A DNA stretch of 35,396 bases from Acidobacteriota bacterium (lineage in GTDB: Bacteria > Acidobacteriota > Terriglobia > Bryobacterales > Bryobacteraceae), in the NCBI GenBank assembly GCA_021787555.1, contig JAJYLS010000015.1, positions 1-35,396 of the forward strand, written 5' to 3'. The notes beneath the pieces were generated by a model that saw nothing but the letters and a program-made list of their open reading frames with translations, was not told where the DNA came from and searched no databases. Made by a program: the position numbers and the translations under genes. Below are positions 4,086 through 35,396 of this stretch, piece by piece; the stretch's first letter is position 1, and the number at the start of each line of letters is the position of its first letter.

Positions 4086-5465
4086 ATGTTCTCCCGAAGA
4101 GAGTTTTTGACATCGGCAGCGACGGCGGCGGCCACGGCGGGCGCAATGGCGCAGACGCGCGGCACGGGCCGAAAGCCGAATTTCATCATTTTCCTCTGCG
4201 ACGATCTGGGCTGCCACGATTGGGGGGCGCTGGGCGCCACCGATCTGAAGACGCCCAACATCGATGGCATCGCCACGTCCGGCGCGCGGTTCACGAACTG
4301 GTATTCAGCCGCGCCGGTCTGCGCGCCCTCGCGCGGTGCGCTGAATACGGGGCGCTATCCGCAGCGCAACGGCCTTACCGGAAACGGCCGGCCGCTGCCG
4401 CCGAGCGAGGAGACCACCGCCGCGCTGCTCAAGCCGGCGGGTTACGCCACGGGCGCTTTCGGGAAATGGCATATGGGCTCGACGGAGGACACGGTTCCCA
4501 ACGCGCACGGTTTCGACCAGTATTTCGGATTCCACTCCGGGTGCTTCGATTACTATTCGCACCGCTACTACTGGGGCGAGCGGGCCAATCCGCCGATCGT
4601 GAATTACCACGACCTGTGGCGCAACCGCACGGAGATTTTTGAAGACGGGCAATATTCGACCGAGCTGTTCGCGCGGGAGGCGACGCAGTTTATCCGCGAC
4701 AACCACACGCGGCCGTTCTTCGCCTACGTGCCGTTCAACGGAGTGCACTATCCCATGCACGCGCCCAAGAAATACGTAGACCGGTTCCTGAACCTGGAAC
4801 CCGAGCGGCGCACGTACGCGGCGATGCTTTCGGCGGTGGACGACGGCATCGGACAGGTGATGCGCACGCTACGCGAGTATCACTTGACCGACAACACGCT
4901 GGTGGTGGTGACCGGCGACAATGGCGCCACGCGCGAGACGCGGGCGGGATTGGACCAGAAACCGGCCACGGCGGGCGATAACCGGCCGTTCCGCGGGAAT
5001 AAGTTCAGCTTGTTCGACGGCGGCATGCACGTGCCGTTCTGCATGAGCTGGCCGGGGACGATTCCGAAGGGACAGGTGCTGCACCAGATGGGCTGCCATG
5101 TGGACCTGCTGCCGACGTTCCTCACGGCGGCGGGCGTGCCTCTGCCCACCGACCGCACGCTGGACGGCTTCGACGCGCTGCCCATGGCGGTTTCGGGTGC
5201 GCCATCCAAGCACGACGCCATCTTCTGGGAATCGGCCGGGCAGCTTGCCGTGCGGCGCGGGAAATGGAAGCTGGTGAAGAACGGCAAGACGTTCGATGGC
5301 ACGCCGGAAGGCAACCGGCCGCTCCCGGGCGACGACGCGATCTTCCTTTCGAACCTGGAGGAAGATCCCGGCGAATCGAAGAACCTGCGGCACGAGAATG
5401 CGGCGCTGACGGATGAACTGCTGACGCTGGCGGAGAAGTGGACGGAGGACGTCAAGAAGCCGTGA
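4086..5465 (+). CDS. Tat-exported sulfatase (arylsulfatase A family)
   Basis: 459 aa. The N-terminus SRREFLTSAATAAATAGAMA is a classical Tat signal. The mature protein opens with NFIIFLCDDLG (calcium-binding acidic pair D39-D40). It has the formylglycine motif C79-A-P-S-R followed by GALNTGRYPQRNG, so it needs oxidation of C79 by a formylglycine-generating enzyme or anSME. Further family blocks are FGKWHMG, VVTGDNGATRETR (metal-binding D-N) and GGMHVPFCMSWPG. It should hydrolyse sulfate esters, probably on sulfated sugars, outside the cytoplasm. The first ATG at 4077 lies within the putative -10 hexamer, so 4086 is preferred. It is convergent with the MFS gene, only 10 nt away. Confidence 0.9.
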   Translation: MFSRREFLTSAATAAATAGAMAQTRGTGRKPNFIIFLCDDLGCHDWGALGATDLKTPNIDGIATSGARFTNWYSAAPVCAPSRGALNTGRYPQRNGLTGNGRPLPPSEETTAALLKPAGYATGAFGKWHMGSTEDTVPNAHGFDQYFGFHSGCFDYYSHRYYWGERANPPIVNYHDLWRNRTEIFEDGQYSTELFAREATQFIRDNHTRPFFAYVPFNGVHYPMHAPKKYVDRFLNLEPERRTYAAMLSAVDDGIGQVMRTLREYHLTDNTLVVVTGDNGATRETRAGLDQKPATAGDNRPFRGNKFSLFDGGMHVPFCMSWPGTIPKGQVLHQMGCHVDLLPTFLTAAGVPLPTDRTLDGFDALPMAVSGAPSKHDAIFWESAGQLAVRRGKWKLVKNGKTFDGTPEGNRPLPGDDAIFLSNLEEDPGESKNLRHENAALTDELLTLAEKWTEDVKKP

Positions 5466-5471
5466 GAGCTG

Positions 5472-5492
5472 TTGGTTATTGGCTATTGGCTA
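5472..5492. repeat. Three tandem heptamers TTGGYTA
   Basis: TTGGTTA-TTGGCTA-TTGGCTA sits in the gap between convergent genes and supplies the last codons and stop of the MFS gene. Flanking GCTGTT (5469-5474) and AACAGC (5492-5497) form a weak stem. Confidence 0.6.
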
Positions 5493-6690
5493 ACAGCACT
5501 ACGGCACCCGAGGCCATCAATGCGCCGGCAGCGGCAAACGCGATAGCCGGGGAAACGGCGGTCCAGAGCATGCCGACGAGCACGCTGGCGATGAAATCGC
5601 CGATGCCGTTCACCGCGCCCATCAGACCGTAGGCGGTGCCGCGATCCTCGGGCGGCACCATGCCGGCGGGGATGGCGCCTTCGAGCGCGTCCTCGACTCC
5701 GATGTAGATGCCGGCGAGCAGGAAGACGCCGGCGAGGGGCGCAAGTCCGGTGGAATTTCCGGCGAACAGGGCCGCGGTGGCGAAGGCGGTGAGCGCGCCC
5801 AGGGCGTATCCAATGGCGAGCAGCCGCGTCTTGCTCATGCGGTCGCCGAGCGCGCCGGCGGGGAAGGCGGTGGCGGCGTAGACCGCGTTGCGCAGCACGT
5901 AGAGCCCTGCCGCGGCGATGCCGGCATAGGCCAGGCCGCGCGCGGGAGCCAGCAGGTGCGTGGCGGCGAGCACCAGCAGGGTGGGTGCGAAATCGCCCGC
6001 ACCGAACACGCCGACTCCGATCAGGAAGCGCCGATACGGCCGCGGCAGTTCGCGGACCGAAACCCACAGGCGCCGCTGGCGATTGCCCGGCGCGCGCTGC
6101 TCGCGCACCAGGAAAACCATCGAAGCGACGGAGAGCAGGCCGGGGACGAGAGAGATCAGGAAAATGACGCGGTAGGGCGCGGAAGGATTCGGCCGCGGCA
6201 GCACGGAAAGCAGCGCGGCGCCGAGCAGGGGACCCAGGACGGCGCCGGCGGTGTCGCCCGCGCGATGCAGGCCGAAGACCTTGCCGCGCGTGCCGGGCGC
6301 GGTGGATTCGGAGAGCATGGCATCGCGCAGCGGGCCGCGGATGCCCTTGCCGAACCACGCCAGAAGCCGGCCCACGAGGACCAGCGGCCACGAGACCGCG
6401 GCGGCGAAAATCGAGAGCGCCGTGCCGGAAAGGAAGTAGCCGACGGTGACGATGGGCTTGCGATGGCCGACACGGTCGGAATACCAGCCGGAGCCGAGCT
6501 TGACGAAGCTCGAAAGCGCGTCGGCCGAGCCTTCGATCCAGCCGAGCGCGGCGGCGGCCACCCCGATGGATGCAAGAAACGCGGGCAGTACGGCATTGAT
6601 CATCTCGTAGCCCACGTCGGCGCAGAAACTGGTGACGGTCATGCCGAGAACATTGCGATTGAGCCAATGGGTTTTCGCGTCCTGCGGCAT
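5476..6690 (-). CDS. MFS transporter
   Basis: 404 aa, highly hydrophobic throughout with about 12 predicted membrane helices. MFS motif A is present in the loop after helix 2 (GWYSDRVGHRKP), and a motif-C-like helix is GDTAGAVLGPLLGAAL. The second half begins near FLIGVGVFGAGDFAPTLL and repeats the pattern (FPAGALGDRMSKTRLL). The substrate is unknown; general resemblance is to drug or metabolite efflux MFS proteins. The last residues (LANSQ) and stop codon come from a heptamer repeat, so the native C-terminus may have been altered. A GACAAT 7 nt before the ATG suggests a leaderless transcript. It is divergent from trxB. Confidence 0.85.
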   Translation of the reverse strand: MPQDAKTHWLNRNVLGMTVTSFCADVGYEMINAVLPAFLASIGVAAAALGWIEGSADALSSFVKLGSGWYSDRVGHRKPIVTVGYFLSGTALSIFAAAVSWPLVLVGRLLAWFGKGIRGPLRDAMLSESTAPGTRGKVFGLHRAGDTAGAVLGPLLGAALLSVLPRPNPSAPYRVIFLISLVPGLLSVASMVFLVREQRAPGNRQRRLWVSVRELPRPYRRFLIGVGVFGAGDFAPTLLVLAATHLLAPARGLAYAGIAAAGLYVLRNAVYAATAFPAGALGDRMSKTRLLAIGYALGALTAFATAALFAGNSTGLAPLAGVFLLAGIYIGVEDALEGAIPAGMVPPEDRGTAYGLMGAVNGIGDFIASVLVGMLWTAVSPAIAFAAAGALMASGAVVLLANSQ

Positions 6691-33944: not shown

Positions 33945-34257
33945 TTACTTCGGTATCGGCAGATGACTGTTCCATATGTCGCGCGTGATCTTCCACGAAG
34001 ATCCGACCTCGCGCTCGTAGAGGGTTATGTATTTGCCGATGTCATCCATCGCAGGGCCGCCACCGCTCGGCGTGAGCTTGATGGCGTAGCGACCGCGTTC
34101 CATGGCCCAGTCGCCGGCCACGCGAACCTCATCCACATCGAGCGAGAAATGGCACCGGAACATGCTTAGGAAGCCATGGCTCCATCCTTGGATCGCTTCC
34201 ACCCATGTTCGCGGGAAAGTGTGGAGGCATCTGCACGGCGTGGTTGGCCGTGAACAT
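33945..34257 (-). pseudogene. SnoaL/DUF4440-like remnant, 5' end replaced and frameshifted
   Basis: The minus strand encodes the C-terminal half of a small ketosteroid-isomerase-like protein (FLSMFRCHFSLDVDEV, VAGDWAMERGRYAIKLTP, MDDIGKYITLYEREVG, SWKITRDIWNSHLP). The preceding piece (AVQMPPHFPAN) is in another frame, with the shift near 34204. Upstream of that the sequence becomes the C-terminal end of an unrelated gene (FRPAMAMFTANHAV, junction about 34236-34257). It therefore has no start of its own and cannot make a normal protein. The fold family includes many small enzymes and stress proteins. Confidence 0.65.
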
Positions 34258-35037
34258 CGCCATGGCGGGGCGGAAGACGGCGATTCCAGCCGCGAGCATA
34301 GGCGCGCCACCTTCCAGCCGTACGGCGTGACGAAGTAACGGTTGGTCCGCGGCGGCCGAAAGATCAGCCCTTTCAGTATGTTGGAATAGCGTTAGTGCCA
34401 GCAGCAGCGCCATGACTCGAGGATGGCCGAACTTCAACGAGGGCGCTTTCTCGCCGTCTTCGGTGACGGTCGGTTGCACCACGCGTTGGATGCTGTCGCC
34501 GCTCAGTCCGCTGTTGTGGCTGACGCGTTCGACTTCCAGCAAGCGCCGATTGATTTGCCGGCCAATCTTCTGCAGGTAGGGTAGATTCACCAGTCCTTTG
34601 TTGATGTCGAAGTCGTTGGGGTTGCGGAAGGTCCCTTCCGTCCGGCAGCCGCGTCCTTCCTTGAAGTACTGTTTGAGATCGAAGTTCTTGTATTGGATGT
34701 GCAGGCTGGGGTGAACGCCTTGCTGGATGACCCGCGTGCGAAACTCGCCGGGAGTCTTCTTGGTCACCACCCGGTCGAAAATCAGTTGCACCCGGTCGGG
34801 CCGCCCCAAGTCCAGGTTGTCGCGGATGATCTCCTCGAAGAACTCACGGCCTCGCAGTGGCTGGTCGAAGATCTGCGTGAGGCTCACTTCCATTTGCCAG
34901 ATCGACAGTGCCCAGTCGTAGCCGGCCTCGCGATCTTGCTGCCGCAGTGGCAGCGGCACCCGCTTCAGCCACTTACGGAAGACCCGGTCGATCTGCTCGG
35001 GTCCCAGCGAATCGCAGGTCTCCTGCAACTTCTCCGG
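34258..35037 (-). pseudogene. C-terminal part of an uncharacterised repeated gene, degenerate
   Basis: Minus-strand frame from PEKLQETCDSLGPEQIDRVF (35037) through RVPLPLRQQDREAGYDW, QPLRGREFFEEIIRDNLDL, RVQLIFDRVVTKKTPGEF, YFKEGRGCRTEGTFRNPNDF, RLLEVERVSHNSGLSG and LLLALTLFQH. An internal deletion with frameshift follows near 34380, after which a second frame reads LKGLIFRPPRTNRYFVTPYG, and another 1-nt loss near 34285. In-frame TAG lies at 35038-35040, directly where the homology begins. From memory this is a widespread, uncharacterised protein of about 450-500 aa in soil metagenome genomes, found in many copies; I cannot verify that. An ORF of 299 codons starts at an internal ATG (35028) but lacks the N-terminal third. 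Confidence 0.55.
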
Positions 35038-35038
35038 C

Positions 35039-35396
35039 TACGCACCGAACATCCCCGAATTGCTGAGCAGACAGTTGGAGGTCAAATGCCTGGACCGGCT
35101 GTACTTGAATGGGTACATCGGCAAACTGGCGACGTCGGGCGGGCTGGTGACCTTCATGCGGGAGCAATTGGGCAAACCCATTCCATCGCCGGTGGTACTG
35201 GGGCAGGTGACGGAGAGGTTCCGGGAAGCGGTGCGGATCAAGGCGGAACGGGACAAGATCCCGATCTATCAGTTCGACCACAAGGAGCGGAAAGACGATG
35301 TCGCCGACCAGATGCGCCGGCAACGGGGCGTGCGGGACGGGATCGTCTTCATCGGCGTGGCACAGGAAAAGGCGCACGCCTTCAGCGGCAAAAAGA
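35039..35396 (+). pseudogene. N-terminal part of the same uncharacterised repeated gene, in opposite orientation (runs off window)
   Basis: The + strand frame from about 35039 reads YAPNIPELLSRQLEVKCLDR, then LYLNGYIGKLATSGGLVTFM, REQLGKPIPSPVVLGQVTER, PIYQFDHKERKDDVADQM, RRQRGVRDGIVFIGVAQEKA. It is open to the window end with no start codon at its beginning. In my recollection these blocks form the N-terminal third of the same protein whose C-terminal part is on the minus strand next door. The pieces meet head to head at 35037-35041, as an inversion inside the gene would produce. Confidence 0.5.

Follow-up and report, generated by a model that had tools for sequence, protein, structure and literature searches.

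The end of the contig

The window, that is the whole stretch of DNA analysed here, is the complete contig C118 of 35,396 bp, from a genome of 5.9 Mb in 516 contigs. At its right end two pieces of one protein type lie head to head (Table 1). As the initial annotation had stated, the C-terminal part is encoded on the minus strand, left of about 35040, and the N-terminal part on the plus strand, right of about 35046. A single full-length protein covers both: P0001, a relative of 534 aa from genome G052, aligned by blastp with the N-piece over residues 18-117 (39% identity, E 1e-20) and with the C-piece over residues 208-421 (50% identity, E 5e-73), both being single-comparison E-values. The pieces are nevertheless not the two halves that had been proposed. 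They are not complementary, and residues ~118-200 are missing from the window because the contig ends, stopping inside the N-piece at 35396.

The profile built for the family matches the C-piece between 34372 and 35046, corresponding to aa 200-423 with one TAG inside, and DNA homology to a copy in genome G035 extends from 34779 down to 34250. By blastn the C-piece is 82% identical to locus L011 over 401 bp and 80% over a further 126 bp. It carries a net deletion of ~112 bp near 34373-34379, with a frameshift, and thus has itself decayed, independently of the join. No right end of the element described below was found at the C-terminal fragment. Neither the start codon nor the 5' leader nor the element's left end is present in the N-terminal fragment, which is 96% identical over 357 bp to contig C42 of the same genome bin and 87% identical over 323 bp to contig C318. 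Beside the C-terminal fragment, at 33987-34196 within the wider span given in Table 1, lies a gene remnant with matches to PF14534 (E 0.0019) and PF13577 (E 0.0095), both below the cut-off. Two other Pfam identities were rejected, DUF5682 for the C-piece (E 1.6e-4, sub-cut-off) and EZH2_N for a window piece (E 0.09); both are absent from the Pfam matches of full-length members.

Table 1. Features at the right end of the window, and loci with a second gene in subfamily 2
Feature	Position or loci	Strand	Basis
DUF4440/SnoaL-like gene remnant beside the C-terminal fragment, 5' part apparently missing	about 33945-34310	-	weak Pfam
C-terminal fragment of the element's main gene, from ~aa 200, decayed, with frameshift	34250..35046	-	blastn, blastp, profile
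KQYFKEGRGCRTE: putative catalytic tyrosine Y327 (family numbering), flanking lysines, RxE (E337)	34636..34674	-	
QME: putative metal ligand E253 in invariant QxE	34888..34896	-	
Head-to-head junction zone; minus-strand TAG at 35040-35038	35038..35046		
N-terminal fragment, codon 2 to ~aa 118, runs off the contig	35046..35396	+	
CLDR: contains putative metal ligand D23	35087..35098	+	
Final 127 bp of the contig, equal to the C318 end; not assignable to one copy	35270..35396	+	
Divergent four-helix-bundle-motif gene in the subfamily-2 leader	L075, L076, L080, L081, L084, L086, L089, L090, L093, L097, L100, L103		

The join and its origin

The join had been described as base-tight, with an in-frame TAG created by it. 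It is indeed narrow, but it can be placed only within about 8 bases because no close intact relative covers its C side; on the N side the match to the C42 copy begins within codon 2. The TAG is present, but the join need not have created it. The family profile continues through it up to 35046, and to judge from the sequence it may therefore be an ordinary nonsense mutation inside the C-piece rather than a product of the join. The letters at 35038-35040 read CTA, which is the target sequence of the element. This may be coincidence; a comparable join at locus L056 has no CTA.

With a threshold of E 0.01 the family profile finds eight matches in the genome bin; the window accounts for two, and there is no full-length family member among the eight. 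A DNA search of the bin likewise found eight places, several at contig ends, and a pattern search found three left ends of the element (C42, C318 and C369). The window and C318 end in the same 127 bp, without a mismatch, and in alignment the N-piece is C42-like upstream and then C318-like at its end. A k-mer length of 127 is in common use. A contig end of this kind is left by a de Bruijn assembler where it meets a repeat node. Elsewhere in the bin a 133-bp piece (L004; G000:C46:119-251) that is 98.5% identical to the C-fragment of the window stands beside a transposase-like frame and, by eye, between the inverted sequences GCTAATTTGGAC ... GTCCAAATTAGC; it is perhaps a captured fragment.

Pieces of the gene in mixed orientation were seen at two of the 88 related loci scanned, both in metagenome-assembled genomes (MAGs). 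L056 has the head-to-head topology of the window at positions 1-1919, at the start of its contig, with a base-tight join at 470 and arms that are 96.6% identical. L083 has mixed-orientation pieces of the same gene at 5001-6059, in the middle of its contig. The topology of L056 is that of an inverted partial duplication and not of a broken gene, so that a head-to-head topology need not mean that a gene was broken.

These loci bear on the initial reading of the join, which was that a gene had been broken by inversion or that two copies had recombined. That the pieces belong to one family stands, but one inverted gene and two joined copies are indistinguishable here, because the contig ends inside the N-piece and in a repeat. 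Breakage by inversion was not established: the second breakpoint lies off the contig, none was found among the contigs of the bin, and no match in the bin is full-length. A single inversion inside one gene copy would account for the absence of overlap between the N- and C-pieces in the window and for their orientation, which fits one inversion of the N-to-middle segment. It is unlikely all the same. The window contains neither residues ~118-200 nor the second breakpoint, and for this copy they are not supplied by any of the other matches in the bin; the join also lacks start codon, leader and left end, a loss greater than a clean internal inversion would produce; and the same topology at L056 goes with arms of near identity, as in a duplication.

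The join might also be an artefact, in which a chimeric read or library molecule fused two copies near the end of the contig. The join lies 350 bp from the contig end, in a repeat that also occurs at the very ends of contigs C318, C336, C369, C333 and C81 of the bin; the last 127 bp are exactly common to C318; and by eye the 59-bp piece in C336 is fused to a transporter-like gene. The overlap with C318, however, accounts for the end of the contig and not for the join, which is internal to the contig, so that, we infer, its k-mers should have been in the reads. Mixed-orientation pieces also occur at the two other loci, one of them mid-contig. We regard an artefact as a serious possibility, yet one with less than an even chance. 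Most likely the join is a real, functionless product of secondary rearrangement, in which dead material underwent inversion or fold-back within one copy or between copies. Rearranged pieces are unsurprising given that the gene belongs to a mobile element, as described next. By itself the join is a relic of low interest, and possibly an artefact.

Ends, target and mobility of the element

In the subfamily of the window an intact element is about 1.8 kb long. It begins with a CTA at its left border and a hairpin 2-3 bases inward, contains a single gene of about 535 codons and ends on the right in CTA. Beyond the gene, the DNA similarity between loci breaks off abruptly. The clearest set of copies is in Bradyrhizobium erythrophlei GAS478, which has eight copies of 2.07-2.28 kb that are 97.5-99.9% identical in their main blast segments. 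They are dispersed at sites with unrelated flanks and all eight have CTA at both ends, followed on the right by no fixed base (G, G, A, T, G, A, G, G). Among these copies (L184-L191), five are ~2,283 bp long with a tandem duplication of 195 bp at the right end; the other three, of ~2,070-2,087 bp, are without it.

Unoccupied sites were also searched for, and one was found. It corresponds to the subfamily-2 copy L079 and lies in Bradyrhizobium genome G211, where a single CTA joins the two flanks, next to one substitution. Matches to the element of L079 occur in 7 of 195 Bradyrhizobium genomes, with full copies in one of them. A right end for L078/L079 at 6577 was discarded, the empty site showing that L079 continues for ~40 bp. 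A search of plasmids for the unoccupied sites of two copies found no place that spans the flank-to-flank join. The left flank of L110 is the end of an annotated IS110 copy, and other copies of that IS110 are not clean empty sites. L108, L109 and L046 by eye have repeated left flanks, such as CTGTAGTA, before the CTA and likewise look to be inserted at the end of another insertion sequence.

In 32 of 36 copies the left-end CTA is followed after 2-3 bases by a hairpin with a perfect 5-bp stem and a loop of 3 bases; of 1800 mononucleotide shuffles 13 had such a hairpin. The 36 loci were a selected set, those of the window's subfamily and of plasmids with an assigned start. The stems are GAGGC/GCCTC in 21 copies, GGGGC/GCCCC in 10 and GGGGT/ACCCC in one, so that the groups differ on both sides of the stem. 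A hairpin at the right end was seen by eye. The right-end pattern, which is biased in that it requires a CTAG-like end, matched 20 of 28 loci with CTAG; four more were recognised by eye and four were without it. Terminal inverted repeats were found in none of six elements tested, and Rfam gave no match in L184. There is no target duplication beyond CTA, a 3-bp duplication of CTA being indistinguishable from a CTA carried at the right end. As judged from these copies, the element inserts at CTA, without terminal inverted repeats and without duplication beyond the CTA itself. At L031 the right end of one copy runs straight into a second left end with one CTA common to both, a tandem junction that would fit a circular intermediate. 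In a replication-strand test of B. erythrophlei (40 sampled stretches, weak GC skew) 6 of 9 copies agreed by eye with a bias, one of the ten copies being left out of the count at a place where the skew is unclear.

The family is almost certainly mobile, judging by the near-identical copies at unrelated sites, the precise ends and the unoccupied site. An ordinary host gene family with paralogues could account for annotations that mostly read "hypothetical protein" and for two divergent copies in tandem at L080, L081, L084 and L094. It would not be expected to give almost identical copies whose sites are unrelated and whose non-coding ends are conserved, matches in 24 plasmid records, an unoccupied site for L079, or a presence as scattered as that of L079's element in Bradyrhizobium, and we consider such a family highly improbable. 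On the loci compared, the protein family is the main gene of an insertion-sequence-like element of 1.8-2.3 kb, carried by numerous environmental bacteria of several phyla. The end of the window consists of rearranged, decayed pieces of this undescribed element.

Distribution

A scan of 84,980 species genomes confirmed 103 relatives. The best 80 of these 103 carry the labels Acidobacteria, Gamma-, Beta- and Alphaproteobacteria, Actinobacteria, Chloroflexi, Planctomycetes and others; many relatives are MAGs, whose labels can be wrong. Isolates among the best 80 belong to Rhodococcus, Dactylosporangium, Pseudonocardia and Bradyrhizobium. Protein identity reaches 71-82% between records labelled as different phyla, again with the reservation that the labels of MAGs may be wrong. 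Of 72,556 plasmid records 24 had a match, and no relative was found in the viral contigs and phage records scanned. When the genome of the window was considered along with 60 related genomes, 10 of the 61, its own included, had a match. In genome G267, the source of L093, at least 13 contigs begin no more than 3 bases from where a match to the protein's last 47-67 residues starts, a sign of many copies collapsed in the assembly.

Subfamilies and accompanying genes

In the subfamily of the window (subfamily 1) the leader before the main gene is 137-224 bp long and no other gene was recognised; in L079 the leader is 164 bp. Subfamily 2 often has a second small gene, divergent from the main gene and bearing an IPANIAEG or VPANIAEG motif, in its leader: it was found in 12 of the 18 copies with enough upstream sequence. 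The one at L084, which was the one searched against Pfam and NCBIfam, encodes a 23S rRNA-intervening-sequence/four-helix-bundle protein (PF05635, E 6e-38; TIGR02436, E 4e-36). Such a mobile carrier may help to explain the scattered presence of the PF05635 protein, the function of which is unclear. The B. erythrophlei copy L184 has a divergent frame of 132 codons, for which Pfam and NCBIfam gave no match. All three subfamilies share the transposase candidate, which is not always the sole gene. At L080, L081, L084 and L094 the two divergent family members in tandem are ~26% identical and ~180-220 bp apart, possibly a paired version of the element.

The predicted enzyme

The initial annotation had called the protein family apparently undescribed, and the searches agree with this: full-length members had no significant match in Pfam, NCBIfam or PHROGs, searched with four members, or among PDB sequences, searched with one member and a profile. 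Where the plasmid records are annotated the protein is mostly named hypothetical, and in one case an ArsR family regulator. In an alignment of 38 proteins, D23, R24, Q251, E253, R335 and E337 were kept in all 38, Y327 and K325 in 37 each, and position 329 was K or R in every protein. The resulting motifs are an invariant D, QxE and RxE, and a near-invariant KxYx(K/R). H177 is the only histidine among the invariant or nearly invariant columns of these proteins.

The AF2 model (pLDDT 85.8 for the whole; pLDDT 92.1 and pTM 0.90 for the N-domain) predicts a TBP-like N-domain followed by a C-terminal winged helix. In this model D23, E253, Y327 and E337 each lie on a strand of their own (15-30, 246-260, 322-329 and 333-340). 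VIA-align of the N-domain placed a TATA-binding protein first (Z 9.3). It also listed three structures of Rep_trans proteins, a group of rolling-circle nickases: 4cwe and 4cwc (RepDE) at Z 7.3 and 7.0 and 4cij at 6.9, over 176-182 residues, Z values within the range that VIA-align calls common for unrelated folds. The aligned ranges place D23 at D46 of RepDE and at D9 of the Geobacillus stearothermophilus protein, if the first residues align without gaps. With Foldseek the best match of the whole model was 4cij, the Rep_trans protein of G. stearothermophilus (E 4e-3); for the N-domain alone no match reached E 0.001, and the 50 matches listed included no Rep_trans chain. A search of viral models gave A0A2N9QVX7 as top match. 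At the sequence level PF02486 was absent from the Pfam matches of four members at an E limit of 10, and hhalign of the family alignment gave a probability of 0.2% against 14 Rep_trans proteins, namely those over the cut-off among 19 PF02486 places found.

We think it likely that the enzyme is Rep_trans-like, since the structural scores, modest as they are, agree with the residue conservation; the protein would then be a Rep_trans-like tyrosine nickase acting as transposase. The protein might instead be a passenger or a regulator, or a transposase of another chemistry. Its transposase role is assigned from sequence and predicted structure, Foldseek matches are clearer for its winged helix (MarR-like, probability up to 1.00) than for its catalytic part, and a second small gene is frequent in subfamily 2. 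Against this, the gene is common to three subfamilies; the leaders in subfamily 1 and in L079 are short; and a plain regulator would not be expected to have invariant acidic residues and a tyrosine that is nearly invariant. We hold these alternatives to be improbable and take the protein to be a putative Rep_trans-like transposase.

A proposed model for transposition

In the mechanism that we propose, the enzyme would combine a tyrosine endonuclease of TBP fold, similar to Rep_trans, with a DNA-binding domain of the winged-helix type. The winged helix would bind the element and the ends would be recognised. The catalytic domain could then nick one strand behind the CTA at each end, with D23, E253 and E337 binding a metal and tyrosine 327 holding the 5' end. 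The element would then move as a single strand into another CTA, by a logic like that of IS200/IS605 and with an unrelated enzyme. Taken together, an undescribed CTA-inserting element, a predicted Rep_trans-like enzyme and a join that arose by secondary rearrangement offer a reasonably probable joint explanation of what is seen in the window.

Known transposase classes are few: DDE, HUH, serine and tyrosine recombinases, Cas1-type and reverse-transcriptase based. What would be new here is the transposase class, the element being an insertion sequence in the wide sense; the class assignment draws on the predicted fold and the conserved residues. Among the titles and abstract openings listed from the open PMC literature, to which the word undescribed is limited here, there was neither a Rep_trans-type transposase nor this element. 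We put at about even the chance that these transposons are the first to have a non-HUH, TBP-fold tyrosine endonuclease of the Rep_trans type as their driving enzyme. It would form a separate transposase class, unannotated and found in many bacterial phyla, and move one strand between CTA sites, with ends marked by hairpins. If so, a replication-type nickase fold unrelated to HUH and with an insertion sequence of its own would be an additional class, and the single-strand style of transposition could be suggested to have arisen more than once. A recurrent "hypothetical protein" of soil genomes would become an annotated mobile element, one that would also explain broken contigs and relics like that in the window.

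Comparison with known systems

The element differs from DDE insertion sequences in that all six elements tested are without terminal inverted repeats; not all DDE families have both such repeats and a target duplication. IS91/ISCR elements and Helitrons have a hairpin near one end, and their targets differ from that of the element. These HUH Y2 systems have neither terminal inverted repeats nor target duplication (PMC5714925). The element resembles them in both respects, whereas their enzymes are of the HUH type.

IS200/IS605 elements are small, with a hairpin near the end, no terminal inverted repeats, a short fixed target and a similar closing sequence at the right end (in part after the abstract of PMC6006769). 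The element shares all of these features, with its left hairpin in 32/36 copies, inverted repeats in 0/6, the fixed short target CTA in 8/8 and a similar right end. It differs in that its target is CTA, in its protein of ~535 aa with a TBP-like predicted fold, and in that the histidine pair of HUH enzymes is not present, H177 being the sole conserved histidine in the 38 proteins. IS200/IS605 elements also pass through a single-strand circular intermediate and insert into the lagging strand; on the side of the element, the tandem junction at L031 would fit a circle, and the orientation of copies against the weak GC skew shows no decisive preference.

Rep-Arvir, an archaeal protein described in 2026, is a replication initiator of archaeal viruses and plasmids, with a winged helix and conserved hairpin DNA near its gene; its TBP-like fold was tied to Rep_trans by structure only, with no sequence similarity, and A0A2N9QVX7 was named among its TBP-fold matches (PMC13107129). 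It has in common with the element a TBP-like fold (predicted for the element), a winged helix, a hairpin near the gene and the match to A0A2N9QVX7. The passages cited give no description of its insertion at multiple sites within a genome (PMC13107129).

The roles named for Rep_trans proteins in the cited passages are plasmid and phage replication and conjugation, and not transposition (PMC5714925, PMC13107129). The element protein has no sequence-level similarity to this group (PF02486; RepDE, RepSTK1 and the MOBT relaxases). Its winged helix is C-terminal, it has QxE where Rep_trans has RxD, and its RxE follows the tyrosine by 10 residues rather than by 23 as in RepDE. It may resemble the group in its TBP-like predicted fold, and it likewise has a separate DNA-binding part. 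Rep_trans active sites have the order D, D, Y, E (PMC4797284, PMC5714925). The RepDE site has its ligands D46, D142 and E214 on separate strands and its nucleophile Y191, between R189 and K193, on another; the spacing reported there puts the tyrosine hydroxyl about 5 A from the point around which the ligand carboxylates gather (PMC4797284). The order in the element protein, D, an acidic residue, basic-x-Y-x-basic and RxE, with each on its own predicted strand, is similar to that reported for Rep_trans.
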